Assembly (NCBI RefSeq): GCF_020906515.1
Contig: NC_085853.1
Span: 2,356,001 to 2,420,000, forward strand
Source: Vanrija pseudolonga
Taxonomy: Eukaryota; Basidiomycota; Tremellomycetes; Trichosporonales; Trichosporonaceae
DNA length: 64,000 nucleotides
Reading direction: 5' to 3'
Shown: in pieces, positions 1 through 55,884 of the stretch
Layout: the number at the start of each line of letters is the position of its first letter
How positions within the stretch are numbered: position 1 is the first letter of the stretch
Translations under genes and position numbers: made by a program
The notes under the pieces: model-generated
Told to the model about the DNA's origin: nothing
Database searches by the model: none
What the model saw: the letters and a program-made list of their open reading frames with translations, nothing else

Positions 1-792
1 TCGGCGAGTGCGCGGTGGATGTCGAGCACAGACAACATCGCCGCGTGCCGTGTCGCCGGGGAGGACAAGTCGGACCCCGTCGACGTTGACGCCGTCGAGA
101 TGCTCAGGCTTCGCCGGTGTAAACTCTCCGGCACAGTCTTCGGCACCCCGGGGAATTTGTGCAGGTCAAACGCTGGCGTCTCGGCCCCGCCGCCATGGGC
201 GTGCTCTGGCATGGTGGGCGTCGCCGTGTCGTCCTCTGCGCCTGCTGTCTCGGATGGTTTCTTCCTCGGGGGCAGGACGGTCGAGTCGGGGAGATCCCAC
301 GCGTTTCGCACTGCTGCAAAAGTCTCCCGGAACTGCGGGTACTGAATTGTCAGGCAGGTCTCAGGGGTGGCTGATGATGTGATGGTGGGCTGGTGGGCAG
401 GGGGCAGCGAGCAGCGGCACTTACATGGCACTCGAGGCGGTTGAGCTTGCGCACCAGCTTGCCCCGGTCCTCGTTTTGCCAAAACTTAGTGTCGAGGTAG
501 GCGTTGAGCACGCGCCGGCGGAAGCTGCACCGTCAGTGGGGCTGCCGTCTGCCGTCTGTCTAGAAGCCGAAGCACACACTCACACCTCGTCGTGGGACCG
601 CTTGCTCCCAAACGCCATGCGCACATGCTCCTGGGTCCTGATGCCCTTCTTGAGCGACCGCTCGACTTTCTTGTCGCTGCTGCTGGTGGAGAAGCCAGGC
701 TGTGGGCGTCTGTCAGTCACAGCCGATGATGCAACCCTCTTGTTCTGCGCATCGCTCCCTCCCTCGCTCTCTCCCTCCCTGTACGCACCCAT
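1..792 (-). CDS. KLE-1, KLE-family protein, 3' end beyond the window
   Basis: Exons read as 584-792, 425-524 and <1-341; 216 residues are visible and the last exon is open to the left edge. The first exon ends in block 1 (a degenerate HVRMAFGSK version). The 100-nt exon encodes FRRRVLNAYLDTKF and KLNRLE (block 2). The last exon opens with YPQFRETFAAVRNAWDLPDS (block 3), followed by a polar Ser/Thr-rich tail. Introns are GTGAGT...GTGCAG (59 nt) and GTAAGT...TTCAG (83 nt), in phases 2 and 0. Whether a PPxY motif exists cannot be seen. The ATG at 792 is the first in the open frame; a further 5' exon joining at an acceptor near 735 cannot be excluded. The function is unknown. The family assignment is firm from block 2, block 3 and both intron positions. 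Confidence 0.8.
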
Positions 793-2366
793 CCAGTGTA
801 CAGGTCCGCCCCCATCGCCCAGCCGACTGGCGCCATGTTTTGAGTCATGGTGGAGTGCGTGTGCGGGGGTGGGGGCGGGGGATGGGGGTTGGCGGCGTGT
901 CTGTTCCTGTCCTGTCTGCCGAGGTCGTTTATTTATCTCCTGGCTGCGTCAAGGGCCGAATGATAACAGCGGTGGGTGGTGCTCTCCTCGTCGTCGCCAC
1001 TCAAGCCTCTGCTCGTCGACAGGCAGCCGACATGGACGCAAAAATTATAAGACGCGAGTACGAGTGGCGGGCTGGGGGTGGTGCTGCTGCTGGAAGAGCG
1101 CACTGCAAGTGGGGAATGGGGTGTGGTTAGGTTGCCGTTGTTTTATTTGTACATCACGCCTGTCGTCTGTCCATCCATGCCGTGTACATCTCCCGCGCGA
1201 GACCCAACAGCAGCCCACATCCAAGATCTAGAATCCTTTGGGTCTGGTGGCGTCCCTCCCGCAAAACGCAAGTCTCCAAGAGACGTCGTGCTGGAACGGC
1301 GCCATACGCGGGGACATGGGGGGAGGGCATGGGGTGCAGCAACTCGGTGGTGGTCACGAGTCACGAGGGGTCATGCCTCTCTCCACGCGGGAGCGCGCGG
1401 CGAGGGGTAAGGGAGGGAGAGGGTAGGTGGATTGCGTGCGTGCATGCATTACTGCACCACGCTGGCCTGCTGACTGCCTGCCTTGATGCCTGACTGCGTC
1501 TTTGAGGAACCACCCGCCGACCAAACGGGCATTGTGCATGCTGGCAGGTTTCCTGTGCCGTTGTGCAGTCGTCAAGCTCCCTCTCCGCTGCTGGCCCACC
1601 CGAGATACCCCTCTGCCGTTGCTCTTCGGTGCCTGGGGACGACACTTGGCCACTGCGTTGAAAGCTTTCCACATGCCGCCGCCGTCTGCGCGCGTACTAG
1701 CATTGCTTTCTGTGTGTTCTCTGCCTCTGCACATCTTCGCGGCGTTCGGAGTAACACGACTGGCTGGTCGAGGCCCAGCCAACCTCGGCTCCAGCCATCT
1801 CTCTCCTGCCGCGCCGCCGCCTCACGCTCCACTGCGCGGGGACACACCAGCACCACTTCACTAGTCTCAAACGTTGTCCCCATCCCACAATTTCAGGTTG
1901 AACATCTGAGACAGTCTTGCATGATCGACTGGCGCACGCGCGTGCAGTTAAAGTCTATGCATAGGGTACAACAAGTCTGTCCCTGTGGACGGCAATACCC
2001 TGGTAACAATACAACGTGGTCGGGGCCCAGTTAAGCTACAAGCTACAAGCTTCATTTCATCACTAGGCAATGGAGGGGTGGCAGGGTGGCTCAGTTTAGA
2101 AACTGCCTAACTGCCTAGTGTTTCTTGATGCTGCAGCAGCACCCGGCGCCGCCTTCATAAGTCTCACACTTGGCTCGGCGTGACGGGCCTCTTATTGCCA
2201 GTCTTTACGTCAAGACGACTTGGGCGACTTTACGTCGTCTTGTCGACGGCGCGAGTCGACGCGCGACCATTCTGAAACGACGCCGTCGACACGATCGGCA
2301 CCATCAAACACCAGCACGCGTTGGCTCGGCTCGGCACGGACGCGTGCGCTCGGGCATCAAGCACTA
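793..2366. other. Intergenic, no supported gene
   Basis: This separates KLE-1 from KLE-2, both on the minus strand. It should hold the KLE-1 promoter; an AT-rich TTTATTTAT stretch at 926-934 lies about 140 bp upstream of that ATG. A TGCATGCA element is at 1441. Several open frames cross the stretch on both strands, but none has a recognisable motif or a convincing exon series. Confidence 0.5.
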
Positions 2367-3456
2367 TCATGCTTGGCCTTCGTGCTCGTCGTGCTTGGCG
2401 CGGAGGGCCGACAGCCGGGTCATGAGGCTCGAGCGCCGGCGGCCGCCGGCTCCGGCCAGCGGCAGGCCAGTGACGATCGCGCTCGTCATGGGGTCGGGTG
2501 CGCGGAGGTGGGGGACGGCGTCGTGGTGCGCCTGGGCGACGGGGAGGTCGTATGCCAGGTGCCGCAGGAAGCCGCCGCTCCGTGATGGTGACGAGCCTGT
2601 TGGCGAGGATGCTGTCGACGACGCGTTGGACGTGGCGGGCGACAGCGGCTGCGTGAGGCCGTCCTCGAGCAGGTCGAGCGGGAACGGGTTGCTCTCGACG
2701 TGCTCGAGCTCGTAGTCGAGGCTCTCGAGCGACGTGTCGTCGCGCAGCTCGACCGCCTCGATGGTGTGTACTGGCTCTGGGGCGAGGATGCTCGACGGCG
2801 CGAGCCGCCACGCGTGCCGCGCAGCGTGGAACGTGTCGGCAAAGTGCGGGTACTTGATCTCGAGCAGCTCGAGCTTGGGCCCGAGGTAGAGCTTGTTGCC
2901 GTACCGCTGAAACTTGGTGTCGAGGTAAGTGTGGATCACACGGACGCGGTAGCTGCGTGTGGTTAGTGGTTGTGCTGGAGTGGGTGGGGTGAGGGGCGCC
3001 GTGCGGGGCGGGCGGAGCGTGTCCGTCCACCTAGTGGCGTGCACATTGCGTCTCGACCACCCGCGAAAGGGTTGGTGAGACAACAGAATGAGTGTGCCAC
3101 CTCGCTGGGTCGCGCGCGCCGCCGCCTCCGCGTGCAACTCGCGCCACGCGAGCAATACTCACTCGGGATCCACCGATTGATCAGAGCTAAAGGCGGCATC
3201 GACGTCCTGGTGAGTGACAATGCCGTACACCTTTGTCGAGTCCTGCGAGTGTGTGTCAGTGGGTGTCGTTGGTGCATACAACCGTGGCAAATGGTGGCAG
3301 CCAGTTGCCACGGTGTGTGGTGGCCGATGTCCCAGCCGCGGCCGGCCGGGGGTCACCGAGCCCGGTCTTGGCTTTGGCCCCGTGTGTGCTCACCTTCAGC
3401 CAGCCAAACGAGCTCATGGGCGCGTGAGGGGGGTAGATTGCACCTGCGTCGAACAT
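2367..3456 (-). CDS. KLE-2, KLE-family protein with fused last exons
   Basis: Exons 3394-3456, 3163-3242 and 2367-2952 give 242 residues. The 21-codon first exon starts MFDAGAIYPP. The 80-nt second exon is block 1 (VTHQDVDAAFSSD, closing DPD). The last exon carries block 2 (YRVRVIHTYLDTKF, KLELLE) and runs straight into block 3 (YPHFADTFHAARHAW), so the intron that most siblings have between these blocks is absent. The tail is long, Ser/Thr/acidic and then basic, and has no PPxY motif. It resembles KLE-1 most closely: both have YLDTKF in block 2 and AW before the L-P position. Role unknown. Confidence 0.85.
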
Positions 3457-6952: not shown

Positions 6953-9109
6953 TCAGATACCCTGGGCGTGGTTCATACGAGCGTCGAGGTCGCGCTCAAT
7001 GTTCGTCTTGTGGCCCTTCCACTTGCGGAGGTTGACGCGCTCGACGAAGAGCTCGTGGATCTCGGCCGACGAGCGGCCCATCGACTCGGGCATGATGAAG
7101 TAGGCGAGGACGGTGCCGGGGATGCCGAGGCACACGAAGAACCACGCGGCCTTGACGGCCCACTTCTGGATCATGAGCGGCAGGCAGAAGTTGATGAGGA
7201 TGGCCCAGATGTTGCAGAAGGCGAGGCCCCAGCCGGTCGCGCGCGCCTTGAAGCGCAGCTCGGGCATCTCGGTGAGGTACGCGTACGAGGTCGACCCCTG
7301 GAGCTGGTTGCAGAAGTTGGCGAACACGCCACCGAACACGAGCACAGCGCCGAGCTTGGCATTCTCGTACTGGAAGCAGCCGATGATGGCCATGATGAGC
7401 ACACCCGTGCAGGCGCCGCTGAAGCCGATGAGGGTCATCCGGCGACGGCCGATAACGTCAACGAGCGCGGCGTCAAGGAGAACAGAGGCCCTGGGTAGTG
7501 TTAGCGCACGGACAGGGCACCGCAGATCAAAGGAGTGGAGAAAGTGGCGGTTGGGAATCGGCAGTCGACGTGGAGGATCGGCACTCAAAAGTGCCACTTT
7601 GACCGTCCTCCATCCTCCAACCTTTCCAACCTTTCACAACGTCTCCGAACACCTCCAAAGACCTCAAAATCGCGCTTACCATCCAACGCAAGTGAGAATA
7701 AGCGTCACGTTGAAAGGGTCCTTGTTGCCGGCGAGCTGGAAGAAGTAGGTCGCGTACGAGGTGAAGAGGGCGAGGCCGGCAAACTGCTGAAGGACCTTGG
7801 GGTAGCAGCCAATGAGGAAACGCTTCAGGTTGAGTCCGGTGAGGATAGCGAACGGACCCTGGGACTTGGCCTCGAGCTCCCAGCGCTTCTGCTGCTCAAT
7901 GGTAGCGGCGATGATGGAGATCTCGTGGTCGGCGTCGAAGCCCGGCACGCCCTTGTAGTTCCACTGGAGGACCTTCTTGGCGCGCTCGAGCTTGTTCTTG
8001 CGGACCAGCCACCAGGGGGACTCGGGAAGGATGATGAAGATGCCGGCCATGAGACCGATCATGGCGAACTGGGTGTAGATCATCTGTCCGGGTTAGAATG
8101 GCTCCGGAGAGGGAGGGAAGGGGCACTCACAATGCGCCAGTCGTAAGGGTGCGTCTTGTTGCGGCTGTAGAGGGCGATCGAGGCGAAGAACTGGCCAAAG
8201 GCGAACCAGCTGGGACGTGTTAGCAGGGGCCAGGGGTGTCTCGGTGTTCGCTGAGCGAGATCTCGCTGAGAGAGGGAGGTAGAGGGGTCGACTGATTGCC
8301 GCCACTAATTCGCGCCACGTGAACCACGTGGCGCCCCGCACTCTGACCCTACTTTCCAACCCTGTCCGCAGAAAGTCTGGACGCACGACTCGATCTACTC
8401 ACAAGCTGTAGGCCACGACGACGATACCACGGATCTGGACGGCGGCCATCTCGTTGATGTACACGGGCAAGTTGACCTGGATGGCGCCGACACCCATGCC
8501 GGCAATGAGACGCGCAATGGTCCAGTTCCACCACACCTTGCTGAGGCACTCGGTCATGGCGGCCTGCGAGCGGGAGAGTTAGAGTTGCGGTCTTCACCAG
8601 GTCACCACCAGCGGTCACCACCACTAGGCCACTACTCACAAGGGCGAGCACGACACAGCAGACCCAGACGCCGCCGCGGCGACCGAGCCACTCGAGCGGC
8701 CACTGGACAACAAACTGGCCCAGGACCATACCCGCCGAGTAGACACCGCCAAAGGTAGAAACGTGCTTGGGGTCGAGCTTGGTGCCGCCGTTGGAGAACT
8801 GCTTGATGAAGCCCTTGTTGGCGACGATGGACGCAATCATCTGGTGCTGGTAACCTGGTCGTTAGCGCGGCCGCGATCTCGGAGTCACCCACCATCGAGA
8901 GCGGCGCAGAGACCGGCGGCGAAACAGACCAAAATGATACGCCTGAAGACCTTGACACTCTTCAAGAGGCTGAACGAGTCAAGCTCCGACTTGAGCTGCG
9001 TGTCCGAGAACTCGGTCGCCTTCTGGATGATGACGCCGTCGGCCGTCGCCTCGACATGGGTGACCTCGGCCTTCTCGTCGTAAGCGCTGACCTCTGGGCG
9101 CTGCGACAT
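6953..9109 (-). CDS. MFS sugar permease, alpha-glucoside (maltose) type
   Basis: Six exons (8893-9109, 8640-8854, 8403-8563, 8131-8209, 7680-8083, 6953-7490) encode 537 residues. This is a sugar-porter family transporter with about 12 predicted membrane spans and a long cytosolic N-terminus. Signatures: EWLGRRGG after span 2-3 (about residue 131), PESPWWLVRK before the central loop (about 244), DVIGRRR (about 374), and the PES-GRS motif near the C-terminus (about 480). The double Trp in PESPWWLVRK is typical of MAL-type alpha-glucoside:proton symporters, whereas hexose transporters usually have PESPRWL. It is divergently transcribed from the alpha-glucosidase across a 1.19-kb shared promoter, the layout of fungal maltose clusters, which supports uptake of maltose or related alpha-glucosides across the plasma membrane. 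Other disaccharides are possible. Confidence 0.92.
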
Positions 9110-12286: not shown

Positions 12287-12424
12287 CTCGCTTCATAACT
12301 GCTGTGTACAATATAGTAGCATGCATGGACTCTGTAGTTTGCGTGTACTGTGGTGATGGTGATGTTACAGGAGTACTATATACATTCGGCCGCCGGCCAC
12401 AACGAGGCAGCTGCGGTGACGTCG

Positions 12425-13413
12425 CTAGCATCGCAGCGGGTCAATCGCCGCGGCCTCGGCGGCAGGAAAGGCGCGGGGTACGAAGCCAGGCGACGGTGGG
12501 GGTGGTGGCGGCGGTGGCGGCGCGTCGTCCCTGTAGTCTTGTGATTCTCCTTCTTCTAGGTCTACACCGACGCCGGCTGCGGCACCCCCCGCTGCGATGG
12601 CGCGCAGACGTAGGTCGAGCAGCCTTGTCGCCTCGGGCTCAGGGTCGTCCTTCGCGTACGCCGGCAGGCCGGCCTGCCCGTCGACGTCGAGGTCGTCTGC
12701 GCCGAGGGGACGGGTGACGGCGACGGGCGCGCCCATGAGTGCTTCGACGCGCGCGCCGCGCGTCTCCGTCACCTCGCCGCGGGCTGTCGGCGCCGAGTGC
12801 TGTAGCAGTGTCGCGAGCTCGGAGGGCGGCGGCAGGACGCGCGATGGGGGCAGGTTGAAGGCTATCCTTACTGCGTGGAGCGCGTCGGCGTGCTCTGGGC
12901 GCTGGAGGTCAGCGTTGGTCAGCAGGGCCACAACTCACCGCTCGTTCGACTGCCTCGAGCTTGTCAGCTAGCACGGCCGCGCCGCGCCGCTTGCTCTTGT
13001 TCTCGACGTAGGCCTTGGTGAACTTGTATGCGTAGCTGGGTGTTAGGTGGGCCAAAGGGATGAGAGCAACATACGCTGGGTCGCGCAGGCACACGTCGAG
13101 GTCGAGGGCAGCGACAAGCGCCTTGGTGGTCGTGAGCGTGGACAGTTTGGGCTGCGAGGTGAGCTTGGTCCTACTAGGGCGAGCTCACAGTGATTGTCAC
13201 AGACTGGTTCATGTAGTCTGGCACTGCGCGCCGCCGCTCCAGCCGGGTCTGGGCGTTGCCCGCGCGGAGAGTCGCGATGCGCGACGGCCCAGCGTTGCTC
13301 GAACCGTCCGACGCCGCCGATACCTGGCGGGAGAGAGAGACGCGGGGGCTCGAGAAGGCTGACGAGAGACGGGAGTCGATGCCCGAGGGCGGGCGGGACG
13401 CGAAGAGACTCAT
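12425..13413 (-). CDS. KLE-3, KLE-family protein
   Basis: Four exons (13189-13413, 13075-13151, 12939-13035, 12425-12901) encode 291 residues, the longest member. The first exon gives a Ser/Arg-rich leader starting MSLFASRPPSG. The 77-nt exon is block 1 (TTTKALVAALDLD, closing DPA). The third exon is 97 rather than 100 nt and encodes YAYKFTKAYVENKSK with the variant KLEAVE. Block 3 reads HADALHAVRIAFNLPPSRVL. The tail is mixed acidic/basic and ends with a run of nine prolines followed by SPGF; it has no PPxY. The gene faces the glucosidase tail to tail with only 138 bp between. Function unknown. Confidence 0.85.

Positions 13414-15655: not shown

Positions 15656-15656
<1 letters not shown>

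Positions 15657-15693
<37 letters not shown>
15657..15693. repeat. CAG trinucleotide microsatellite
   Basis: About 12 uninterrupted CAG units. It lies in noncoding sequence as far as I can tell. Confidence 0.9.
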
Positions 15694-15694
<1 letters not shown>

Positions 15695-18361: not shown

Positions 18362-19001
18362 CTACTGCCCAATGTAATCGGCTCCGTCGCGGCCCGGGTA
18401 CGCCGGCGGAGGGGGGTGCATTCTCCTCGCGGTGTCCTCTGGCTCGTCGGTCCCGCTCCTACTTGCGCCGCAGCGGCACACACTTGGGCGGTGTGTCGGC
18501 ACCGGGAGGACGGCAGAATCGCCCAGGCCAAACTGTTTTCGCACGGCGTAGAAGTCGCTCGCGAACTGGGGCATCTGGAGGGAGCGAGCGAGCGTCAGCG
18601 AGCGAGCGAGGCAGGAGGTGGCGACGCGAGGCGACGCCCTCGCCGCCGCTAAGAGGCCCACTCACATCCCGCTCAAGCACCAGCAGCTTGGCGTTGACCT
18701 GCGCCGTCGTCTTGCCGCGGCCCATCTTGGTCTGGACGTAGGTCGTGATGATGGCGTGGGCGTAGCTGGGCGTTGTTAGCGCCGGCGAGGGGGGCACACG
18801 TACCCGGGGTCAGCGAGCGCCCGTGTCGTGTTGAGTGCGCGGACGACCTGTGATGAGACGCGGGCCGGGGCGAGTGCCGGCTGTGATGGTGGTGGTGGTG
18901 TCAGCGATGGTGACGACGGCGATGACGGCCCCACCCACCTGGATAGCGGTGATGCGCTGCGGCTCTGACCTGGGCGAACGTTCTGATTCAGACGATGACA
19001 T
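18362..19001 (-). CDS. KLE-4, KLE-family protein with PPxY tail
   Basis: Four exons (18939-19001, 18804-18880, 18666-18765, 18362-18574) encode 150 residues. The leader starts MSSSESERSPRSEP; a 58-nt intron in a CACCAC-rich stretch then joins the 77-nt block-1 exon (VSSQVVRALNTTRALADP). The 100-nt exon reads YAHAIITTYVQTKMGRG and KLLVLER. Block 3 is MPQFASDFYAVRKQFGLGDS. The tail is short, contains two close cysteines (CRC) and one PPAY motif, and ends DYIGQ. Introns 2 and 3 occupy the family positions (phases 2 and 0); intron 3 contains GAGC repeats. Function unknown; family assignment firm. Confidence 0.85.
18582..18607. repeat. GAGC repeats within KLE-4 intron
   Basis: Two short GAGC runs separated by GTCA sit in the last intron of KLE-4. 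Confidence 0.6.
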
Positions 19002-20129: not shown

Positions 20130-20836
20130 TCATGCAGCGGCAGTGTACACTGGCAGCCGGTCGCTCGAGTATGCTGGCGGCGCGTGCATCTCCCCTCCGG
20201 CGCGGCACGGCGCGGCGACAAGGCTGGGGAGGACGTCGGACGGGCCGAGGGCGTATGTGTCGCGGATGGCGTGGAAGTCGGCTGCGAACTGGGGCACCTG
20301 GGCGGTGTTAGCGAGTGTGCAGGCATGCACGTCAAGCGCAGGCGCGATGCACACGACTGGCCAGGCAGGCGCAGCCGACATTGCGCAACTTTGCGCCGCT
20401 GACGACTGGGTGCGCGACTTGGCCCGCCAGTGGCCGGTGGCCCAATCACGCCCCACCCCAGACCAGTCACACGACCACCCGACACCCGACACGCACCTTG
20501 CTCTCGATGCGCTGCAGCTTTGCGCCGACCTGCTCGCGCGTGCGCTTGCGGTGGAGCTTGCGCTCGATGTAGTGCCGGAGGACGGTGTGTGCAAATCTGC
20601 CGCGCGGTGGTTAGCTACGTGCGTGTGCCGGCCTCTGCCCGCCTACGCTACGCACTCTGGATCTGAGAGCGCCCGCGTCGTAGTCAATGCGACGAGCACG
20701 TCGCTCGCGTCGGCGACGAGCGCTGCGCCGTTGGGCTGGCCTTGTCAGCTAGTGCTTGCTTGCTTGCAGCGCGCACACCCACCTCGAGAATCATGCACTT
20801 GCGCACTGCGCGGCGGTAGGCGCCGAGGTCTTCCAT
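20130..20836 (-). CDS. KLE-5, KLE-family protein with PPxY tail
   Basis: Exons 20783-20836, 20656-20735, 20497-20596 and 20130-20297 encode only 133 residues, the shortest member and close to a minimal version of the family. The 18-codon leader MEDLGAYRRAVRKCMILE shares RRAVR and the IL ending with KLE-11. The 80-nt exon is block 1 (ASDVLVALTTTRALSDP). The 100-nt exon reads FAHTVLRHYIERKLHRK and KLQRIE. Block 3 is VPQFAADFHAIRDTYALGPS. The tail has PPAY and a degenerate LPVY. All three introns follow the family plan; the last is 199 nt. Function unknown. Confidence 0.87.
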
Positions 20837-22407: not shown

Positions 22408-23114
22408 ATGTCGACATCTCCCACATCACCATCATCGTCGTCCTTATCCAGCGAGCACCTCGCAACGACCCCGCCCCCTCACCCACCACCCCCACCACCC
22501 GCACCCCGCACAATGGTCAAGGCCGCCGACGTGTGGGTCGCGCTCGACGCCGAGCAGGCGCAGCAGAGCCCGCAGTACCGGCTCGAAGTGATCCGCGCGT
22601 ACCTGCTGCACAAGGTGCGGCGGCACCGCTCAAAGGTCGAGCTGCAGCTCAAGCTCATCCCGCTCGAGCGGACCGTACGTCCCCTCGCCCACGTCCCCGC
22701 TCACACACGCAGTACCCCCACTTTGCGGACACGTTCCAGACCGCGCGGCTCGAGTTTGCGCTCCCCGCGAGCCCGGTCGTCGGCGCCCCGCCCCCGCACC
22801 TCGCACGGGCGTACCACCGCGCGCGCGCGGCCCGCACCCCCAGCGACCGCCGACTGCCAATAACGCTCGACGCGGCCGACCTGGCCGACCTGGCGCCGCC
22901 GTCCCCGCCGCCAGAGTTTGTCGCGCCCCCGCCGGCGTACGAGCGCGAAGACACGGAAGCAACCATCCGTGACCTCCAGGCGAGGTTATCTACCGCCCTC
23001 GAAGAGGCCGAGCGCGCACGCGCACGCCTTGCCGAGGCCGAGGAGGCCCGCCGCGAGCTCGAGGAGCGCGTCGTGTGCTTGGAACGCCGCGGGGGGGAGG
23101 AGGTCGCGGTTTAG
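22408..23114 (+). CDS. KLE-6, KLE-family protein with C-terminal coiled coil
   Basis: Exons 22408-22674 and 22713-23114 encode 222 residues. Blocks 1 and 2 are fused in one exon (VKAADVWVALDAEQ, then YRLEVIRAYLLHKVRRH and KLIPLER), so the block 1/2 intron seen in most siblings is missing, while the block 2/3 intron (38 nt) is kept in phase 0. Block 3 is YPHFADTFQTARLEFALPAS. One PPAY motif follows. The last 50 residues form an Ala/Glu/Arg heptad-rich helix (IRDLQARLSTALEEAERARA and on), a probable coiled coil unique within the visible family. The leader is Ser/Pro rich. It may oligomerise or bind a partner; function unknown. Confidence 0.85.
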
Positions 23115-31780: not shown

Positions 31781-33083
31781 ATGGCAACCATCCCCCCACC
31801 GACAAAGCTAGGCCGGTACCGCGTGCTGTCGCCGCGCGCGGGGCTGCGCGTGTCCCCGATCCAGCTGGGTGCAATGTCGCTCGGGTCGCACTCGGACCAG
31901 CTGGGCAAAGTGTCGAAAGAGCAGGCGTTTGCGCTCCTCGACGCGTACTACGCCGCGGGGGGCAACTACATCGACACGGCGAACAGCTACCAGGGGGGCG
32001 AGAGCGAGGCGATCATTGGCGAGTGGGTGACCGCGAGAGGTAACCGCGACGACCTGGTCATCGCGACCAAGTTTACGAGCAACTATAAGAACGGCAACAA
32101 GGACCATCCGATCCAGGTTAATCGCGCGGGCAACAGCCTCAAGAGTATCGTGCTCAGCTTGGAGAACTCGCTCAAGCGGCTCCAGACGAGCTATGTGGAC
32201 GTGCTGTGTGGGTTGTGTCTTGAGCTAGGAGCAGCGAGCTGACTCGCACCCCAGACCTCCACTGGTGGGACTGGACCACGCCGATCGAGGAGGTCGTGCA
32301 GGGGCTCAATAACCTCGTCAAGGCGGGCAAGGGTGAGTCGATCGCTGGTAGCAATGCTGACCCCAGTCCTCTACCTCGGCATCTCGGACACGCCGGCGTG
32401 GGTGGTCGCCAAGGCGAACCAGTACGCGCGCGACCACGGCCTGGCGCAGTTCGTGATCTACCAGGGCAAGTGGAGCGTGCTCTCGCGCGACCTCGAGCGC
32501 GACCTGCTCCCCTTGGCGATCCACGACGGGCTGGCCATTGCCGCGTGGGGCGCGGTGGGACAGGGCAGGTTCCAGCGCAAGGCCGACCGCGGGGCGAGCA
32601 AGGACGGGCGCAGCGCGCTCCCGCTCACGGACAAGGAGGTCGCGGCGAGCGACGCGCTCGAGGCCGTGGCCGACGAGCTGGGCGTGGCCAGCGTCACGGC
32701 TGTCGCGCTGGCGTACATCTTCGCCAAGTACCCCTACGTGTACCCCATTGTCGGGGGGCGTAAGGTCGAGCAGCTGCACGAGAACATTGGCGCGCTGGAC
32801 ATCAAGTTGAGCCAGAAGCAAGTGCGCTTTTTGGACGGCGCGCTGCCGTTCGACTATGGCGAGCCGACTGCCTCGGTAAGTCGCCAGTGGAGGGGGAAGC
32901 TGACACCGCGCGCAGTTCGGCCTCGACCCCCACTTCCTCGGGTTCCAGCAGCACTTTGCCGTCGAGTCCGCCGGGATCGTCGACTACGTGCCCCTCCGGC
33001 AGCCGGTCGACGTCGGGCATCTGCGCGAGAGCGACAAGGAGGCCAAGAAGGCGTACTTTGAGGGCAAGGACCGGCCGTGGTAG
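31781..33083 (+). CDS. Aldo-keto reductase, aryl-alcohol dehydrogenase type
   Basis: Exons 31781-32207, 32255-32332, 32367-32875 and 32916-33083 encode 393 residues. The AKR catalytic tetrad is complete: Asp65 and Tyr70 (YIDTANSYQ), Lys97 (VIATKF) and His145 (LHWWDWT). LGAMSLGS near the N-terminus and the C-terminal IVGGRKVEQLHENIGAL cofactor segment are typical of the fungal AAD/NorA-like branch (AKR9). The predicted reaction is NADPH-dependent reduction of aromatic or other aldehydes to alcohols; physiological substrate unknown. Introns of 34-47 nt cut the frame at positions that restore Y-L-H-W and A-S-F-G. It is one of the single-copy genes set inside the KLE array. Confidence 0.92.
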
Positions 33084-34009: not shown

Positions 34010-34585
34010 ATGCTCCAGCGCCCCTCTTCCCCCTCCACCGCGGGCCCCTCGCGCGCCGCCTCGTCCTTCGCCCCCTCGCTCCTCTCGTCGTCGTCGACGG
34101 CGTCCCTCCCCGCCGCGGCGCCCGAGCCCGGGTCGATCAAGACGCACGCGCACGTCGTGCGCGCGTTCATGGCGCCCGGCAACCTGTCCGACCTGCAGAT
34201 CCGGCTCATCCTCGAGAGCTACGTCGCCTACAAGCTCGCGCACGGGCGCAACAAGTGGCAGATGAGCGCAAAGCTCCTGCGGCTCGAGTACTCGTTCCCC
34301 GCGCACGCGCGCGTCCACCGCATCGTGCGCGCGTATTTCGAGATCCCGGAGAGCGCGTACGCCGTCCGCCTGTTCACTGCCGGCCTCGCGGCCACCGCTG
34401 AGGCCGAGCTCGAGGCCGGTGTCGACCGCGAGAACGAGGACGGAGAGTGGGCCCCCGTCCCGCCGCCCGCGTACAAGTGCAAGCCGCCCGGCTACGCCTG
34501 TGCTGGCATCGAGCCGGCGCCGCCCACCTACGCGACTAAGCCAGTTGTCAAGGTCGAGCCCGTGCCGCCAAAGATCGACGCGTAG
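34010..34585 (+). CDS. KLE-7, intronless KLE-family protein with three PPxY motifs
   Basis: One exon, 191 residues. After a Ser/Ala/Pro leader (MLQRPSSPSTAGPS) comes block 1 (IKTHAHVVRAFMAPGNLSD), block 2 (IRLILESYVAYKLAHGR, KLLRLE) and block 3 (SFPAHARVHRIVRAYFEIPE) with no interruption, so both family introns have been removed precisely. The tail has PPAY, PPGY and PPTY spaced about 8-15 residues apart, then KVEPVPPKIDA. The ATG at 34010 is chosen because the conserved part follows it and a TATA box sits at a suitable distance upstream. Function unknown; the PPxY triplet makes a WW-domain partner likely. Confidence 0.87.
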   Translation: MLQRPSSPSTAGPSRAASSFAPSLLSSSSTASLPAAAPEPGSIKTHAHVVRAFMAPGNLSDLQIRLILESYVAYKLAHGRNKWQMSAKLLRLEYSFPAHARVHRIVRAYFEIPESAYAVRLFTAGLAATAEAELEAGVDRENEDGEWAPVPPPAYKCKPPGYACAGIEPAPPTYATKPVVKVEPVPPKIDA

Positions 34586-35481: not shown

Positions 35482-36307
35482 ATGTCCATCCTCTTAAGGC
35501 GCGCCCACGCCACGACACTCGCTGCAAAGTCCAAGGCGCAGGAGGCGAACGCTGCGTGCTCGGCGTCGGCAAATGCCTCTGCGTCGTCGTCAACCGCCGC
35601 GTCAAATAAGCCATCACCATCACCACAGCTCGGCTCGTCGCCCGACTCGTCGCGCGTCGCAATGTCCCTCCGCTCACCGCGCGCGCGCGGCGACCCAACA
35701 TTCGCGCAGCTCGTCCTCGAGAGCTATGTCGAGCGCAAGTTTGAGCAGGGCCTCAAGGTCGAAGATGTCGGGCATAAGTTGCTTGTTCTCGAGAGCCAGG
35801 TGAGTGATCGCCCAGACCACTAGCCTAGATAGCCGGCGGAGAGGAATGTGCGTCCCCGCACAGCTCGTGCGGCGTGCACATGCACCAGCGCACCTGTCGG
35901 CGACGGCGGGGACGCTAGGCTTGGTGGCGAGCGAGGACGAGTGGGTGGGCTCGGTTGGTGGACGGGTGATCGCGGGCAGCAGACCGGCATCTGCTGTGCT
36001 TCCCACTCGTGTTCCACTGAGCTTCCTCGTCTCTTCGCGTCCTCGCCTCTTCGGCTCCTCATTCCAGATACGCTCTCGCCCCCGGTTGCCCCGCGCCCCC
36101 CACTCCCCGCCCCGCACAGCACAGCACACACCCCGCTAACGCTGCGCCCAGTTCCCAGCGCTCTCGCCCACGTTCCGCACCGTGCGCGTGCACCACAAGC
36201 TGCCGCTGAGGCCCGTCAAGTCGACCATGCTCGGGCCACAGCAGTGCGTGCCCGACTGGGACACGCCCAAGCAGAGTCCTGGCCCGCCTCATCCCAGCCC
36301 GGTGTAG
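35482..36307 (+). CDS. KLE-8, KLE-family protein, divergent, no PPxY
   Basis: Exons 35482-35799 and 36152-36307 give 157 residues. The first exon holds a Ser/Ala-rich leader (MSILLRRAHATTLAAKS), a barely recognisable block 1 ending GDPT, and block 2 (FAQLVLESYVERKFEQG, KLLVLE). The second begins FPALSPTFRTVRVHHKLP (block 3) and ends in a short PSPGPPH-type tail without PPxY. The intron between blocks 2 and 3 keeps its family position and phase but is 352 nt, the longest in the window, so an extra small exon or another acceptor is possible. Function unknown. Confidence 0.75.
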
Positions 36308-37146: not shown

Positions 37147-37820
37147 ATGTGGCTCTGCAAGAAGACGTCAAAGAAGCCGTCGCTCGACGATGACCCGGCA
37201 CGTATCCCCCCATTGTTTTGCCATCTCTAACACTCCCCTGCTAGCGCTACGCCTACACCGACCCCCGGCCCAAGCTCTACCATCCGTTCACGCTGCCGCC
37301 TACATACATGGGCACGCTCGCGCACGAGGCCCTGTGCGAGCTGCGGACAACAAGGGCAGTCTCCGACCCGGTGTACGCGCGCGCCGTCGTGTACGCCTAC
37401 GTCCAGATCAAGACCAAGAAGGCCGACAAGTTGGGTCTGGGGCGCGACTATGTCAATGCCAAGTTGACAATGCTCGAGCGGCAGGTGAGTGGCGTGGGGG
37501 GGGGACACAGCGCGGCGCTTTGCTGACACCATGTGCAGGCCGGCGAGCACTGGGAGCCGACGTTCCACCACATCCGCGGCGTCCTCAGCTTCCCAGAGCC
37601 GGCGCTCATCCCGCGCCCGCAGCTGTCAGCCTGGGCGCGGTGGAACCAGCCGCTCATCCAGCCGCCGCGCCCCCAGCCGCCGTCGTACGCCGCCTGCATG
37701 GCCAGCGAGGGCGGGGCGCGCGTCGCTGCGGCATCGAGTAATGGCATGCGGAGCCAGGTCATGGGCGGGGGCGGTGACAAGCCGCTCCCCTCTCTGCCGC
37801 CGTTGAGCGAGAAGCAGTAG
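37147..37820 (+). CDS. KLE-9, KLE-family protein, possible GC-AG intron
   Basis: Read as exons 37147-37197, 37245-37484 and 37539-37820, 190 residues. The first intron has a branch-like CTAAC and a CTAG acceptor, but the only donor that keeps frame begins GCACGT, implying a GC-AG intron; alternatively translation starts at the ATG at 37308. Block 1 (AHEALCELRTTRAVSDP) and an enlarged block 2 (YARAVVYAYVQIKTKKAD, an insertion, then KLTMLER) share one exon. Block 3 is atypical (HWEPTFHHIRGVLSFPEP). The tail is Pro-rich with a single PPSY and a glycine run. Function unknown. Family membership is firm from block 2 and the phase-0 intron after it. Confidence 0.78.
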
Positions 37821-39379: not shown

Positions 39380-40185
39380 ATGCTCAACCTCCGGGCCCGC
39401 GCCGTGCCCCTGTTCCAAAAGGTCCGCGACGAGGTGCAGGGCAAGGCCGTCGACTATGGCCTCACGCCACCCTCGCCGTCCAACATGGCCCCAGTGTCGC
39501 CCATCACCTCGCGGCAGCGCGCAGCCAGCGTGCCCGAGGACCCGAGCGCCGTGCGCACGGCCACCGATGTGCTCGTTGCGCTGAGTACAGACCGAGCGAC
39601 GACCGATGCGAGGTGAGTTGGTTGCGCCCGGTCCGGCCGGTGACGTGATGGTCATCGCGTGGTGGTGGCACGCAGCACAGCGCCCTAACGCCGCCCCTCC
39701 CAGGTACACACGTACCGTCGTCACGCAGTACGTCCAGACCAAGCTGCAGCACGGGCGGTCAAAGGACGAGGTCAGCTCCAAGCTCGCGGATATCGAGAGG
39801 ACCGTGTTACTGGCTATGCGCGAGCGGGATACTGGGCGGGTGAGTGTGCCGTGAAGCCTTCGACGTCCACCGCTGAGACCACCAGCTCGCCGAGGTCGCA
39901 ATCGTCTTCGTGTCCGTGCGATCAGAGTACCGCCTCCGCCCGTCCGCCGTGCTGGCACGCACCATCCGCTCCGCGCAGCGGCGGGCGCTGATCGAGGCCG
40001 AGGCCGCCGCTGAGGCCGAGCAGGCGCAGGCGGCCGAGGTCCTCCCGCCGCCGCCGTACGTGACCACGCCGCCAGTGTACACTGCCGCGCTGCCCCTCCC
40101 CGTCGAGACCGAGCCGCCAGTATACGTGCGCGAGGAGGTCGTGGTCGAGGATGCTGGCGTGGTGGGGCCACCGCTCAAGGCGTGA
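39380..40185 (+). CDS. KLE-10, KLE-family protein with three PPxY motifs
   Basis: Exons 39380-39612, 39704-39839 and 39886-40185 encode 222 residues. Block 1 is close to consensus (VRTATDVLVALSTDRATTD). The middle exon is 136 nt instead of 100: after YTRTVVTQYVQTKLQHGR and KLADIER it reads through the ancestral splice site, now GTGTTA, for 12 more codons to a new GTGAGT donor. Block 3 is VFVSVRSEYRLRPSAV. An Ala/Glu-rich helix (ALIEAEAAAEAEQAQAAE) precedes the tail with PPPY, PPVY and PPVY, then an acidic end. The leader starts MLNLRARAVPLFQKV. Function unknown. Confidence 0.87.
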
Positions 40186-41377: not shown

Positions 41378-42117
41378 ATGCGTTTCTCCCTCCCCACCAG
41401 CATGCCGTTCGAGACCTCCCGCCGGGCAGTGCGCGCGTCTGTAATTCTTGTACGTGTCTGCGTGTTCCCTTCGACGCGACGTGTAGCTAATTAACCTGCA
41501 GGCGCAAGGCGCAGACACTGTCAAGTCGTCGTTTGACGTCTCGTGCGCACTGAGCACCAACCGCGCGTTCACGTCCCCAAGGTGCGTTGGGTTTGGCGCG
41601 TCCCCATTCGTTCGCCAGTCCTAACCCCTCCTCTCCAGATGGACTATTGCAGTGCTCACCCGATACATCGAGCTCAAGCAAATGAAAGGAAAGAGCAAGA
41701 GCTACATCGACGACAAGTTGTTGTCTCTCGAACGCGACGTGAGTGTTCCCTTTGTTCTTCCCCTCCCATAACCACTAACTCCCGCCCCAGTTCCCCCGCC
41801 TCTCAGCTGCTTTCGTGTACATTAGACGCGAGTACGAGCTCCCGCCCTCCCGCCTCGCCGCGACGACGCAGACGCCCTCCAGCTCCGCGTCAACGCCAAC
41901 AATCACCACTCCGCGCCTGGAAGAGGACCCCGCGCCGCCGTACCTCGGCGACGTGCCATCCTACGAGAGCTCGTCGGGGGACATGGACGAGGGGATGGAG
42001 GTCGACGAGGAGTGGCCTAACGAGAAGAGCCAGGCCGAGGACGATGGCGGCGGCGACAGCGAGCCAGATATGCGCGAGTTTGTCAACGAGGAGGCCCTCG
42101 AGGAGGAGAGGTCGTAA
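41378..42117 (+). CDS. KLE-11, KLE-family protein with acidic tail
   Basis: Four exons (41378-41449, 41502-41581, 41639-41738, 41791-42117), 192 residues, the full family plan of short leader exon, 80-nt exon, 100-nt exon and last exon. The leader ends SRRAVRASVIL, echoing KLE-5. Block 1 is KSSFDVSCALSTNRAFTSP, block 2 WTIAVLTRYIELKQMKGK with KLLSLER, and block 3 FPRLSAAFVYIRREYELPPS. The tail replaces PPxY with the near-misses APPY and VPSY and then becomes strongly acidic (MDEGMEVDEEWP, EEALEEERS). Loss of the PY motif together with a new acidic end suggests a changed partner. Function unknown. Confidence 0.88.
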
Positions 42118-44747: not shown

Positions 44748-45600
44748 ATGTTCGCGACTATCCGTCCCTCGCACCCTGGTCGGGTGGGGAGCAGCTCCTC
44801 CAGCTCGAGCACGATCAGCGCTCGCGGGCGCCCCGCGCCGGCCATGACCACGGCGGACGGCGTGCTCTCCGCCCTTGGCCAAGATGACGCCAACGACCCC
44901 AGGTGAGTAGTCGACGACGAGCAAGGCCGCGTCGCAAGGCGAGCGGAGGCCTTGCTCACCCCCGCACACCCGCACACCCGCACCCCGCTCACACCCCCAG
45001 CTACGCCCTCGACATCCTCCGCACGTACGTGCGCTCCAAGCGCGAGCGCGGGCGCAGCCTCGAGCAGGTCAACTTCAAGCTTGCAATCCTGGAGCGTCGG
45101 GTGAGTTGTGCTGGCGCGGTGTCGCGCTGTCGGGGGTGGTGCGGACAACGGCGTCATTCACACACACACCCGATCGGCTAGCCGGTCGGAGTACGTGCAG
45201 TGAGCCGCGTCGTCGTCGCCCACCCCGATGGCCGGACTCGTAACAACAGCAACTAACACCCACTCCGCAGATGCCCTACCTCTCCCAAGCACCAGCCTTC
45301 GTCTCGGTACGACAGGAGTACGGCCTGCGCGCGAGCTTCGTAATCACGCGGCTCATGACGCGCCTGGACCGCGAGCGGGCGGAGGAGGCGCTCGTTGCGC
45401 GAGTCACGCGGCGCAGCAGCGCCGACGCGCTCGACGTCGAGCTCGAGATTGTGCCCCCTCCGCCGTATGCACCCCAGCCGCCCTCGTACGAGTGCGCGCT
45501 GTGCGCCGTCACGGTCGAGGGGCTGCCGCCGGGGTATGTCGTCGAGTGCATGTGTCCGTTCGTCGAGGAGCCGCTTGAGAGCTGGTTTCTGAAGAGATGA
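44748..45600 (+). CDS. KLE-12, KLE-family protein with three PPxY motifs and Cys-rich end
   Basis: Exons 44748-44902, 45001-45100 and 45271-45600 encode 194 residues. The leader MFATIRPSHPGRVGSS is Ser rich and continues into block 1 (TTADGVLSALGQDDANDP) in the same exon, so the first family intron is absent. The 100-nt exon is YALDILRTYVRSKRERGR with KLAILER. Block 3 is APAFVSVRQEYGLRAS. The tail has PPPY, PPSY and PPGY interleaved with two cysteine pairs (CALC, CMC) before the final SWFLKR. The cysteines could bind metal or be lipidated, but this is only a suggestion. The last intron is 170 nt. Confidence 0.88.
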
Positions 45601-47423: not shown

Positions 47424-47957
47424 ATGCCGTGCAACCCCAACGCCACGATCGACGGCCTCGAGCGCGCAGTCGACATCCACTTCGCTCCGCCCCGCGCGCC
47501 CGCGCCCACCCCGGGCCTCTCCCTCGCGGCGCCCGACCCAGCCGAGATCCGCGTCGCTGCCGACGTGCTCAAGGCTTTCCGCACCCAGCTCGCAATGGAC
47601 GACTACAGCTACGTGCGCGAGGTGATTAGCAACTACGTCGCCGTCAAGAAGGCAAAGGGAAAGAGCCCCAAGGCGATCGCGCACAAGCTCGCCATCCTCG
47701 AGTCGCAGATCGAGCTCCTTCCCCACCGCAAGCTCGTGCGCGCGTTCGAGAGCGTCCGCGAGGAGAACGCATACCCCCGCAGCGTCATCCTCGACGAGCT
47801 CGTCGCCCGCGACTCGGCCAAGGCAGCCAAGCTCGCCGAGGCCCGCAGGAACTCGTCGTACGCGTCCTCGCAGAACTCGTACCCCTCGAGCTATGTCGTC
47901 TACCGCGACGACAGGTCAAGCGTCCACGTGCCCGAGTTTGAAGAGTTCAAGGATTGA
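47424..47957 (+). CDS. KLE-13, intronless KLE-family protein, no PPxY
   Basis: One exon, 177 residues, starting MPCNPNATIDGLERAVDI at the first ATG; open frame further upstream lacks an ATG. Block 1 is IRVAADVLKAFRTQLAMDD, block 2 YVREVISNYVAVKKAKGK with KLAILES, and block 3 KLVRAFESVREENAYPRS, all contiguous. The tail lacks Pro-rich motifs; it is Ala/Arg helical then Ser/Tyr rich (SSYASSQNSYPSSY) and ends acidic (PEFEEFKD). With KLE-7 it is one of two members without any intron. The two differ greatly in tail, so they are not recent copies of each other. Confidence 0.87.
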   Translation: MPCNPNATIDGLERAVDIHFAPPRAPAPTPGLSLAAPDPAEIRVAADVLKAFRTQLAMDDYSYVREVISNYVAVKKAKGKSPKAIAHKLAILESQIELLPHRKLVRAFESVREENAYPRSVILDELVARDSAKAAKLAEARRNSSYASSQNSYPSSYVVYRDDRSSVHVPEFEEFKD

Positions 47958-50056: not shown

Positions 50057-51003
50057 ATGACGACCGTCGCAGCCCGCGTCTCGTCGTTCCCAATGCACCG
50101 GCGCTCGAGCGCAGCCTCGGGCACCTCGACCAATGCCGCGACCGCCGTGGCCATGGTGAGTGGGCCACCAGCGGCAGCGAGCGCCCTCTGCACAACTCAC
50201 ACACACACGCAGTGCACGCCGTCCTCGTCGACCCTCTCCCTGTCCACCCTCGCGCGCCCGCCATCACCAGACTGCACGTCTCCGTCGCCGCCAAAGGGCT
50301 GGTTCGCAGAGTATCGCCAGCAACGCCGTGAATCCCGCGCGGGCGCCATCATCACCGCGGGGCCGACGCTCGTCAACTGCTCCTACGACGTGGTCGCCGT
50401 GCTCGAGACACAGCATGCCCTCGACGACTATGTGTAAGTGTCGCCGTGTGCGTGCGCGTGCGCGGGTCGCGGCCCATGCACAAAGCTCGCGCTTCGCCCC
50501 GCGCCTCGAGGCTGGGCGCCCCGCCCCACCGAGCCCAGCGCTGACCGTGGCACCCAGATTCGCGCAGCAGGTCGTGTCAGAGTATATCAACGTCAAGCTC
50601 GCGCGCAAAAAGTCGAAAGACTACATTCATTTCAAGCTGGGCACGCTTGAGCGGAGGGTGAGTGTGGCCAGCGAGCGAGCGAGCGAGCGAGCGCCAGCAT
50701 CCGTACTGACATCGGCAGCTCCCTCTTCAGGCCGCAGCATTCGTCGCAGCACGCGAAGAACACACACTCCGCACGTCGTACGTCCTGGCGCGGTACGCAC
50801 GCCAGCAAGAAGCGCGCCTCGCGGCCCGCGCACACGAGCTGCGCAAGCTCTGCACCCCCGCCCCGCCGTACGTGTCCGAGCCGCCAGCGTACGACGTTGC
50901 GCTGGACGCGCCGAGCGACGACGCCAGCCCGCCAGAGTACGTCAAGGTGGAGGAGGTGGGCGAGGGGTGTGGCGACGAGTTTGTGTGGGTCAAGATGGAG
51001 TAG
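50057..51003 (+). CDS. KLE-14, KLE-family protein with two PPxY motifs
   Basis: Exons 50057-50155, 50213-50433, 50558-50657 and 50731-51003 give 230 residues. The first intron is 57 nt and in frame, so retention would simply add 19 residues; its GTGAGT and CACGCAG signals favour removal. Block 1 (VNCSYDVVAVLETQHALDD) ends a long second exon. The 100-nt exon is FAQQVVSEYINVKLARKK with KLGTLER. Block 3 is AAAFVAAREEHTLRTS. The tail has PPAY and PPEY plus APPY, then an acidic aromatic end (DEFVWVKME). GAGC repeats fill part of intron 3. Function unknown. Confidence 0.87.
50671..50693. repeat. GAGC microsatellite within KLE-14 intron
   Basis: Five to six GAGC units start 13 bp after the donor of the intron between blocks 2 and 3, the same intron that carries GAGC runs in KLE-4. 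Confidence 0.8.
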
Positions 51004-52613: not shown

Positions 52614-53413
52614 ATGGCACCGACCCCCCGCGACCCGCCCCAGATCGCGCGCCGCGCCATCGAGCCGTCGACCGTCAAGGAGAGCAAGGATGTCATTGGG
52701 GCCATCAGCACGCAGAAGGCGCGCCGGAATCCAGAGTGAGTGGGTGACCGCGGGCTCGGAGTGGGCGGGAGGCAGGCTGGCGACGGCGTCGGCGTCGGCG
52801 TCGGCGTTGGCAAGCGAAGCTCGGGCATGCCTCGGCGTCATGCGCTCCTCGCCACTCCGCTGCGCACCGCTGCCTCGGCGTACCTCCCCCAGCCGCACCT
52901 GAGCCCCGACCGAACACCACTCACACACCCCAGGTACGCCCGCTCCATTGTCTCCGCATACGTCGAGCTCAAGCGCGCCAAGGGCCGCTCGGCGCGCAAG
53001 ATCGACACCAAACTGCTCATCATCGAGTCGCAGGTGAGTGTGCCGGCGTTGGCAGGAGGGGCAGGAGGGGCAGTGCAGCCGCGAAACCCCGGTACAAGTC
53101 CGGTCGTCGGGTTAAGCAGACGTCACCGGCTTTGGCCGTCCACTAGCACCCAGCTGCGCCGTCCAGCCTCCCTCCAACTAGTTGCGCTTGCACACCCGCT
53201 AACATGCCCCAGATGCCCTGTGCATCCCTCGCAGACGTCTTCATCTCCGTGAGGGAAGACTACAACCTCCCGCCGTCCGAAGTGATCGAGTACCTCGAGC
53301 AGAGGAGACAGGAGCGCGAGAACAAGTACTGGGAGGTACATGGCCCGCCGCCCATGTACGGCGACGGCGACGAGCCGCCCAGCTACGGTGTCGCGGCCGT
53401 CGCCGACGCCTAG
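52614..53413 (+). CDS. KLE-15, KLE-family protein with two PPxY motifs
   Basis: Exons 52614-52735, 52934-53033 and 53213-53413 encode 140 residues. The leader plus block 1 is a single exon (MAPTPRDPPQIARRA, then VKESKDVIGAISTQKARRNP). The 100-nt exon reads YARSIVSAYVELKRAKGR with KLLIIES. Block 3 is MPCASLADVFISVREDYNLP. The tail is compact: a charged helix (EYLEQRRQERENKYW), then PPMY and PPSY seven residues apart, then VAAVADA. It is a good minimal example of the PY-bearing type. Both introns are nearly 200 nt, longer than usual here. Confidence 0.89.
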
Positions 53414-54207: not shown

Positions 54208-54934
54208 TCACGGAGCGTACGCGGGCGCGCCCACCCCCTCGACATACTCTGGCGGGCTGCTCTCATGGTCGTACGCTGGCGGCGGGACCACGCGCCCCCG
54301 ATGCGCATAGTGGTACGGGTTATCCGCGTCGTAACCCGGCGTCTGGGGCCCGAGGATCATGCACAGCGGCAGGTCGAATGCGAGCCGCACGGCCGCAAAG
54401 TCGGGCGCGTACGCTGGGTACTGTTGGCGTACAGGCGTGGGACATGGCGACGTGGGCAGGCAGACAGAGAAGGGGGTATCGTTAGCTCCGGCGCGGAGAT
54501 GCAGATTGTGCCAGCTCACCTGGCGCTCGAGCGAGAGCAGCTTCGCGTTCACTTTCACCCTTGGCCTGCCGCGCGCGAGCTTGGCGCCCGCGTAGGCCTG
54601 CAGCACGGCGCGCGCGTATCTGGGGGAGCGGGTGAGCCGTGGTCTTCGTCGCTGTCGCTGTCGCCGCGGCGTCGGCGTCGGCGTGACGACGCCGGCTGGC
54701 GGCCTCGCCCCCACTCACTCTGGCTCGGCGCGCGCGCGGACCGTCTCGAGCAGCGCCATGGCGTCCGGCGCGGCGCGTACCCTCCCAATCCCGAGCGGCT
54801 GGGTGCGCGTGAGCAATGTGTCTCTCTCTCGCCCGACTCACACTAGACAGCCGCATACAGCGCGAGGTCCAGCTCGAGCCGGCGCTACTAGAGGCGACAC
54901 TGCTCGCGCTCGAGTGTCTCCGCGGTGTCGACAT
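54208..54934 (-). CDS. KLE-16, KLE-family protein with two PPxY motifs
   Basis: Exons 54842-54934, 54719-54798, 54520-54619 and 54208-54420 encode 161 residues. The leader is Ser rich (MSTPRRHSSASSVASSSA). The 80-nt exon is block 1 in variant form (VRAAPDAMALLETVRARAEP). The 100-nt exon is YARAVLQAYAGAKLARGRP with KLLSLER. Block 3 is YPAYAPDFAAVRLAFDLPL followed by CMILGP. The tail shares YHYAHRGRVVPPPAYD with KLE-17, then has PPEY and ends APAYAP. It is the closest relative of KLE-17, clearly a recent tandem copy, although the leaders differ completely. Function unknown. Confidence 0.9.
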
Positions 54935-55322
54935 GGTGCACGAGGCGCAGTGTACAACGCCAACGCCAATGCAGCATACATGAGCGAGGTATGCACGCAG
55001 CAGCAGACGTGCGTGTCCGCCGTGTCCCCCGACAATGCGGATTCCCACCTGCCTGCCTGACTGCCCCCCGATATTATTCACATCTGGGGCCGACAGTGCC
55101 GAAGCTCGATCGAAGTGCCACCCCCACTCTCGACCCCACCGTGGCGACACCCACCCCACCCGGCGCGGCGCCGAGGTCGCCTGCGCCTATATGCGCGCTG
55201 CGTGCGGTCTACGCGCCGTGCGCGTCGTGCTCTCCTCTCCCCGCCTCCAATGTCCGTTTGCATTGTCCGTGTATTATGAAACAGCGTACAGTCATACAAC
55301 AACAGCCTCGCTACGCGCAGTC
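54935..55322. other. Spacer between KLE-16 and KLE-17
   Basis: Should hold the KLE-16 promoter. Nothing else seen. Confidence 0.5.
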
Positions 55323-55884
55323 TCACTCGGCGTACCCCGGAGGAGCTCCGTCGCCCCCGCCCCCGCCCTCGTCGTAAGCAGGCGGCGGCACCACCCTCCC
55401 CCGATGGGCATAATGGTACGGCCACTCGGCGCTGTACCCCGGCGTCGCCGGCCCGAGGATCATGCACAGCGGCAGGTCGAGCGCGAGGCGTACCGCCGCA
55501 AAGTCTGGCGCGTAGGCCGGGTACTGGTCGCGGTGTCAGCCAGCCGGCTCGGGGTCGGTGCGTGCACGCTACACACCTGCCGCTCGAGGGTGAGGAGCTT
55601 GGCGTTCACTTTGGCTGCTGGCCGCCCGCGGGCGAGCTTGGAGCCCGCGTACGCGGAGAGCACGGCGCGGGTGTACCTAAACACAGGCGTCAGACGGGCG
55701 TTTGGGCAAGGACAAAGCACGCTCACTCCGGCTCGACTCTCGCACGCTCGCTCTCGAGCAGCGCCATCGCGGCCGGCGCGGCGCGCACGTCGCCCACGCC
55801 CGCCGACTTGGCGTGCTGCACCCACGCGCAGGGCACGACGGGCACGCTGTCAGCGTTAGAGGGACGGTGCGCGGGGCACGACAT
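55323..55884 (-). CDS. KLE-17, KLE-family protein with two PPxY motifs
   Basis: Exons 55727-55884, 55577-55676 and 55323-55523 encode 152 residues. The leader and block 1 share one exon (MSCPAHRPSNADSVP, then VRAAPAAMALLESERARVEP), so the intron that precedes block 1 in KLE-16 is missing or was never gained. The 100-nt exon is YTRAVLSAYAGSKLARGRP with KLLTLER; its donor is the weaker GTGTGT. Block 3 is YPAYAPDFAAVRLALDLPL with CMILGP. The tail matches KLE-16 up to PPPAYD, then a glycine run leads to PPGY and the end. It is the last family member seen before the right-hand region. Confidence 0.9.

Follow-up and report, generated by a model that had tools for sequence, protein, structure and literature searches.

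We analysed a 64,000-nucleotide stretch of the genome of the soil yeast Vanrija pseudolonga, a basidiomycete of the Trichosporonales, and found that it carries an array of 17 paralogous genes, K1 to K17, for soluble two-part proteins that consist of a core, predicted to be helical, and a C-terminal tail. The stretch, referred to as the window herein, is C5:2356001-2420000 (contig NC_085853.1) in an assembly of 24.87 Mb on nine contigs; database proteins identical to window genes carry LOC62_05G... names. Eleven of the tails hold PPxY motifs, far in excess of what their composition predicts and, in the three members that could be compared, conserved in a second Vanrija species. These motifs, missed by a first-pass annotation made from the DNA letters alone, are the best clue to function. 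Judging from the motifs, we put at about even the chance that the array encodes soluble, non-arrestin adaptors or regulators of an Rsp5-type ubiquitin ligase, which would have arisen by old tandem duplication predating the Vanrija species split.

Detection of the family and gene models

The first-pass annotation had claimed 17 paralogous genes sharing a core of three conserved blocks, a claim borne out by profile searches, six invariant core residues and recurring intron positions. We seeded a block-2 profile with ten motif matches (the motif search listed eleven places) and iterated it. The first pass returned 16 loci in the window with an expectation value (E) of 0.033 or less, the weakest being the minus-strand loci at 526 and 2954 (E 0.011 and 0.033). 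After iteration, 16 loci had E≤5.8e-12, while the 17th, on the minus strand at 13043, had E 0.39; the best match in a reversed-sequence control of the final profile had E 0.94. As the profile was trained on the members themselves, E-values after iteration look better than they should. The 17th locus (K3), which reaches E 2.4e-10 with a profile rebuilt to include it, is genuine: its spliced model agrees with LOC62_05G007628 in both core and tail, and this annotated protein has both introns spliced.

The core spans ∼80 to 85 residues, and the paralogues share on average 32% of it. Six residues (Y, K, K, L, E, and R) are identical in 17 of 17 core rows. To model second introns, candidate GT-AG introns were scored with a block-3 profile; first introns were picked by eye. 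Intron 1 lies after the "DP" of block 1 in phase 2 in 11 of the 17 members, is absent from K6, K7, K8, K9, and K13, and is ambiguous in K2. Intron 2 lies after "LERx" in phase 0 in 14 members. The exon between both introns measures 100 nucleotides in 10 of 11 genes and 97 nucleotides in K3. The shared phase of intron 1 is partly built in because splices were chosen for a continuing frame. Independent support for the exon models comes from K3, K9, and K14, where both core and tail agree with database entries. Database copies of family members bear the names uncharacterized or hypothetical. No transmembrane-like stretch was seen in any of the 17 members (highest 19-residue mean, 1.61), and we therefore dropped a membrane-protein reading. 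The members are as follows (positions in the window).

K1: 1..792, minus strand; block-1 exon end 584, exon 2 524-425, exon 3 from 341; 3′ end beyond the window, 5′ end inferred; visible part without PPxY.
K2: 2367..2954, minus strand; one exon holds blocks 2 and 3, block-1 exon ambiguous; without PPxY.
K3 (LOC62_05G007628, P0003): 12425..13413, minus strand; tail LPAY, without PPxY; V. albida counterpart Q8F55_008315 (P0004).
K4: 18362..19001, minus strand; exon 2 18765-18666, exon 3 from 18574; 1 PPxY; 5′ end inferred.
K5: 20130..20836, minus strand; exon 2 20596-20497, exon 3 from 20297; 1 PPxY; 5′ end inferred.
K6: 22513..23114, plus strand; no first intron, exon 3 from 22713; 1 PPxY, followed by a charged C-terminal end that looks like a coiled coil by eye.
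K7: 34010..34585, plus strand; core without introns; 3 PPxY; V. albida counterpart Q8F55_008308 (P0011), in which all three PPxY are present.
K8: 35482..36307, plus strand; no first intron, exon 3 from 36152; without PPxY.
K9 (LOC62_05G007640, P0008): 37308..37820, plus strand; no first intron; 1 tail PPxY; V. albida counterpart Q8F55_008306 (P0009).
K10: 39380..40185, plus strand; first exon end 39612, exon 2 39704-39803, exon 3 from 39886; 3 PPxY.
K11: 41487..42117, plus strand; first exon end 41581, exon 2 41639-41738, exon 3 from 41791; 5′ end ambiguous; acidic tail with PPxY-like motifs only.
K12: 44748..45600, plus strand; first exon end 44902, exon 2 45001-45100, exon 3 from 45271, an acceptor picked by analogy that has the second-best score (32.6 versus 33.1 for 45250); 3 PPxY.
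K13: 47424..47957, plus strand; intronless; without PPxY; V. albida counterpart Q8F55_008302 (P0002), 88% identical.
K14 (LOC62_05G007645, P0006): 50057..51003, plus strand; 2 PPxY; AlphaFold2 model; V. albida counterpart Q8F55_008301 (P0007).
K15: 52614..53413, plus strand; first exon end 52735, exon 2 52934-53033, exon 3 from 53213; 2 PPxY.
K16: 54208..54759, minus strand; exon 2 54619-54520, exon 3 from 54420; second intron also open in frame (score 40.6 spliced versus 40.2 unspliced); 2 PPxY.
K17: 55323..55884, minus strand; exon 2 55676-55577, exon 3 from 55523; 2 PPxY.

PPxY motifs in the tails

Many of the tails that follow the core are proline-rich. We counted 21 strict PPxY motifs in 11 of the 17 tails, one to three in each (K4, K5, K6, K7, K9, K10, K12, K14, K15, K16, and K17). 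When the same tails were shuffled 20,000 times, composition yielded a mean of 0.92 motifs and a maximum of 6. Expressed per 1000 residues, the tails hold 17.0 PPxY versus 0.35 for the sum of six-frame stretches of at least 60 residues in the window (30 motifs, 86,435 residues), a background that includes the family itself. Conservation between species points the same way. Vanrija albida retains six of six comparable tail PPxY motifs of K7, K9, and K14 (18 of 18 fixed positions), and 125 of 187 other tail positions of these three proteins are identical. The metagenome relatives of K7 and K14 retain three of three and two of two motifs, respectively. A non-strict motif of K14, PAPPY, is PAPAY in V. 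albida. Among block-3 matches outside the window, 5 of 13 have a PPxY within the next 60 residues, as does L025, a weak out-of-window block-3 match.

The core and its predicted fold

The core had been described as unrecognised, and we could assign it neither through Pfam nor by searching PDB sequences. A Pfam scan of 18 members returned ten families at E≤1, each matched by one member, with TEA the best at E 0.0069; for the five families with a cut-off shown, all matches fell below it. The best NCBIfam match (E 0.051) was not convincing. We set aside profile matches in the PDB to immunoglobulin-binding protein 1, Brk1, and VAMP8, none better than E 0.2, which seem to reflect a likeness common to helices. 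We likewise gave no weight to the label "Fork-head domain-containing" that P0011 carries in UniRef; the Pfam scan covered its V. pseudolonga relative K7, which has no match.

AlphaFold2, run on K14, predicted an all-helical core with ten-residue means of 89 to 98 in the predicted local distance difference test and a low-confidence, disordered tail. The main predicted helices over the three blocks are residues 90-97, 106-122, 127-140, and 142-154, and the blocks also cover one short helix and the start of another. The compact module of three or four helices proposed earlier comes close to this prediction, which supports an unrecognised helical module. No distinctive PDB match was found for the K14 model; the structure comparison lists helical repeats and solenoids. 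These folds (designed repeats, cytochrome c oxidase chain E, which we take to be COX5A, and a 26S proteasome chain, presumably Rpn5) are 8 to 15% identical to K14 at Z-scores so low that they may mean a common arrangement only, and a shared function is not implied.

Genomic extent and age of the array

To count the family beyond the window, we searched 120 kb to its left, 90 kb to its right, and three more distant loci of 3 kb each, together with a protein-level search of the whole genome. The count that the first-pass annotation had called for is at least 43 loci on C5 at E≤0.01, 17 of them in the window. All but one (42 of 43) lie between 2.124 and 2.636 Mb, a span of 0.51 Mb, and the outlier is at 1.21 Mb. 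The figure of 43 merges profile and tblastn matches by hand-entered positions, with E-values from different search sizes, and is a lower bound because the tblastn step scores only its best candidates. Some of the 43 may be broken genes. The locus at 2240.5 kb rests on one tblastn row with an internal stop. Six others were detected by block 3 at the same threshold without another block (2247.2, 2256.7, 2257.9, 2260.5, 2352.1, and 2354.0 kb). Outside the 43 stand two tblastn rows on other contigs, C3:3993503 (E 0.0017) and C1:2146502 (E 0.0031), and weaker C5 rows, for example at 2179.5, 2191.0, 2204.8, 2227.3, 2548.8, 2558.5, 2571, and 2633 kb. The family extends leftward from the window and reappears about 131 to 216 kb past its right edge; the 90 kb immediately to the right gave no profile match at E≤0.01. 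A 30-base pattern that joins "KLxxLExx" to the donor GTGAGT has 10 matches in the genome, all on C5, and none in the reversed control. In protein searches of limited depth, run partly on the 8000 best word-sharing candidates, homologues were found only in Vanrija and in the metagenome proteins P0005, P0010, and P0012.

Adjacent members are more alike than a random order would give (mean core identity 38%, versus 32% over every possible pair, p 0.00025 by permutation; 35% versus 32%, p 0.0017, without K17), as expected from tandem duplication. In the tree of the 17 genes, 1 of 14 inner branches is well supported, and only the K16/K17 pair, with 85% core identity, looks recent. Five of the 17 (K3, K7, K9, K13, and K14) have their own V. 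albida counterpart among the search matches listed. The locus numbers of these counterparts, 008315, 008308, 008306, 008302, and 008301 in the same order, fit a collinear inverted array; by the same numbers, V. albida would have further members between those five. At least five members therefore predate the species split. The cores of K7, K9, and K14 are 79 to 93% identical between the two species. Taken together, the low mean identity among paralogues and the V. albida counterparts point to an old array made up of distinct members. The local expansion reported earlier is supported, whereas dosage, offered as one explanation for it, does not fit cores that average 32% identity and at least five members older than the species split.

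A candidate ligase partner and alternative readings

PPxY motifs bind WW domains, and it is by way of PPxY that ligases of the NEDD4 family recruit both substrates and adaptors (PMC3738095). In the V. pseudolonga genome, three WW matches and one HECT match share a single 720-residue frame at C3:1202489-1204192. This frame is, by its predicted domains, an Rsp5-type ubiquitin ligase, the only one found in the genome. We infer WW binding, ubiquitylation, and binding of cargo by the core. In the mechanism that we propose, the PPxY tail would most likely dock on the WW domains of the NEDD4/Rsp5-type ligase, while the core would most likely bind a different partner in each member; the diversity of the cores on a fixed framework suggests such different partners. 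The array would have been built by old tandem duplication and retained since before the two Vanrija species split, and some adaptors may also be modified themselves.

Several observations weigh against this assignment. K1, K2, K3, K8, K11, and K13 have no strict PPxY in their visible part, although K1 is cut by the window edge and K3 and K11 carry look-alikes; the motif is likewise missing from the two V. albida proteins that correspond to K3 and K13. Seven further WW matches occur in the genome, and it is therefore by inference that we choose the Rsp5-type partner. The fold was predicted for one member, K14. Finally, 6 of the 11 members with PPxY have no lysine after the first motif. Sna3 is modified on a lysine that has to be at least about 10 residues C-terminal to its PPxY (PMC3738095), and Sna3-like tail ubiquitylation is therefore unlikely in those six. 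The absence of following lysines fits adaptors better than substrates without proving the point.

If the proteins were instead Rsp5 substrates or competitive regulators, the ligase would destroy them or be occupied by them and the core would have a separate job. Five of the 11 PPxY members (K7, K9, K10, K12, and K14) have lysines at least 18 residues C-terminal to the first motif, a spacing compatible with the Sna3 requirement, but the six members without a following lysine do not share it, and simple decoys are not expected to have a repertoire of diverged cores. We regard this explanation as unlikely. A step less probable still is that the PPxY motifs are a by-product of coding tails rich in proline and in guanine plus cytosine (GC), in an orphan helical family with some other function. 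The window is 58 to 67% GC, many tails are proline-rich, and six members have no PPxY, all of which would suit a by-product, but the composition shuffles and the retention of PPxY between species argue against it.

The core might also be a diverged TEA-like DNA-binding domain, in which case the array would encode transcription regulators whose tails bind WW domains. The Pfam TEA match of K5 (E 0.0069) covers profile positions 41-66 of 68; K5 is also the second of two matches in a TEA scan of the genome (E 0.0345, 19.2 bits), and a comparison of the family and TEA profiles scored 17.05, above all 200 column shuffles (best 16.94). However, the K5 score of 17.1 bits lies below the Pfam cut-off of 25.1, the match occurs in one of 18 proteins, and the profile comparison, with two TEA sequences only, gave a probability of 5%. 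Moreover, nothing in the core corresponds to the long loop that precedes the second TEA helix, and no TEA chain is among the 50 structure matches listed for the K14 model, which does not exclude TEA. We take the similarity to be a faint likeness confined to a single pair of helices and a weak lead, and consider a DNA-binding role very unlikely. Least credible to us is a self/non-self or mating-linked locus, a strain-variable array that controls compatibility and in which PPxY merely sets turnover. The clustering of 42 of 43 C5 loci within 0.51 Mb would be in keeping with such a locus, but strain variability is hard to reconcile with cores that are 79 to 93% conserved in V. albida counterparts. 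We retain adaptors or regulators of an Rsp5-type ligase as our working interpretation, a functional reading that rests on motifs.

Neighbouring genes in the window

Two genes lie between K2 and K3: a sugar-transporter gene at 6953-8840 on the minus strand (Pfam Sugar_tr; the scan excluded frame 8349-8840) and an alpha-amylase-family gene at 10866-12286 on the plus strand, possibly a sugar-use pair. Adjacent plus-strand genes at 25688-26383 and 27844-28635 encode proline-rich proteins that start with MVWVQ and are 47% identical; the second has no Pfam match, and the pair has one further weak match in the genome, at C5:910031 (E 8e-4). Between K6 and K7, the array is broken at 30126-33061 on the plus strand by an NmrA-like gene (match below cut-off) and an aldo/keto reductase gene. 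A minus-strand gene at 57428-57901 has, by eye, a signal-peptide-like hydrophobic start and a partial CPL1-like match below cut-off. Elsewhere in the genome, a TEA-domain gene at C1:1705062-1705223 (63 bits) is the only match to that family above the cut-off.

Comparison with known systems

Among the papers listed on Vanrija genomes, on V. albida, on gene families and tandem arrays in Vanrija, on Rsp5 adaptors, and on expansions of PPxY families, PMC12820176 included, none deals with this family. Regardless of function, it is a family placed by neither Pfam, NCBIfam, nor PDB sequence search. The TEA/ATTS domain (PF01285) matches the hydrophobic spacing of K5 and of the family profile over 26 to 31 positions, but this likeness is below the curated cut-off and confined to one helix pair, and the core lacks the long loop.

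The specificity of Rsp5 in fungi is usually explained by arrestin-type adaptors; fungal genomes have several alpha-arrestin adaptors, and arrestin domains are β-sandwiches. The alpha-arrestin adaptors of Rsp5 (ARTs, Bul1/2, and Rim8/PalF) are likewise cytosolic and use PPxY-type motifs to link a NEDD4-type ligase to its targets. In contrast to their β-sandwich, the Vanrija core is predicted to be all-helical from the K14 model and has no arrestin match in Pfam, since no arrestin family is among the ten matched by the 18 members at E≤1. Non-arrestin Rsp5 adaptors have been described in the basidiomycete Cryptococcus neoformans (PMC12345238). Among them, CNAG_05520 lacks arrestin domains and is linked to Rsp5, similar to the role proposed here. 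CNAG_05520 has two predicted membrane spans (PMC12345238), whereas none was seen in the Vanrija family.

If our interpretation is true, Rsp5 specificity would have a second evolutionary solution, found in one genus as a large PPxY family that is helical and not of the arrestin type. With its fixed counterparts in two species, the array would also offer a route to study how a ligase gains targets by tandem duplication. More tentatively, and with more doubt than confidence, we suggest that the family could be a Vanrija-restricted repertoire of at least 40 substrate receptors for one HECT ligase, almost all encoded within 0.5 Mb and built on an undescribed helical scaffold. Expansions of F-box and BTB receptors are known for cullin ligases, and the proposed Vanrija repertoire would be their HECT-ligase counterpart.

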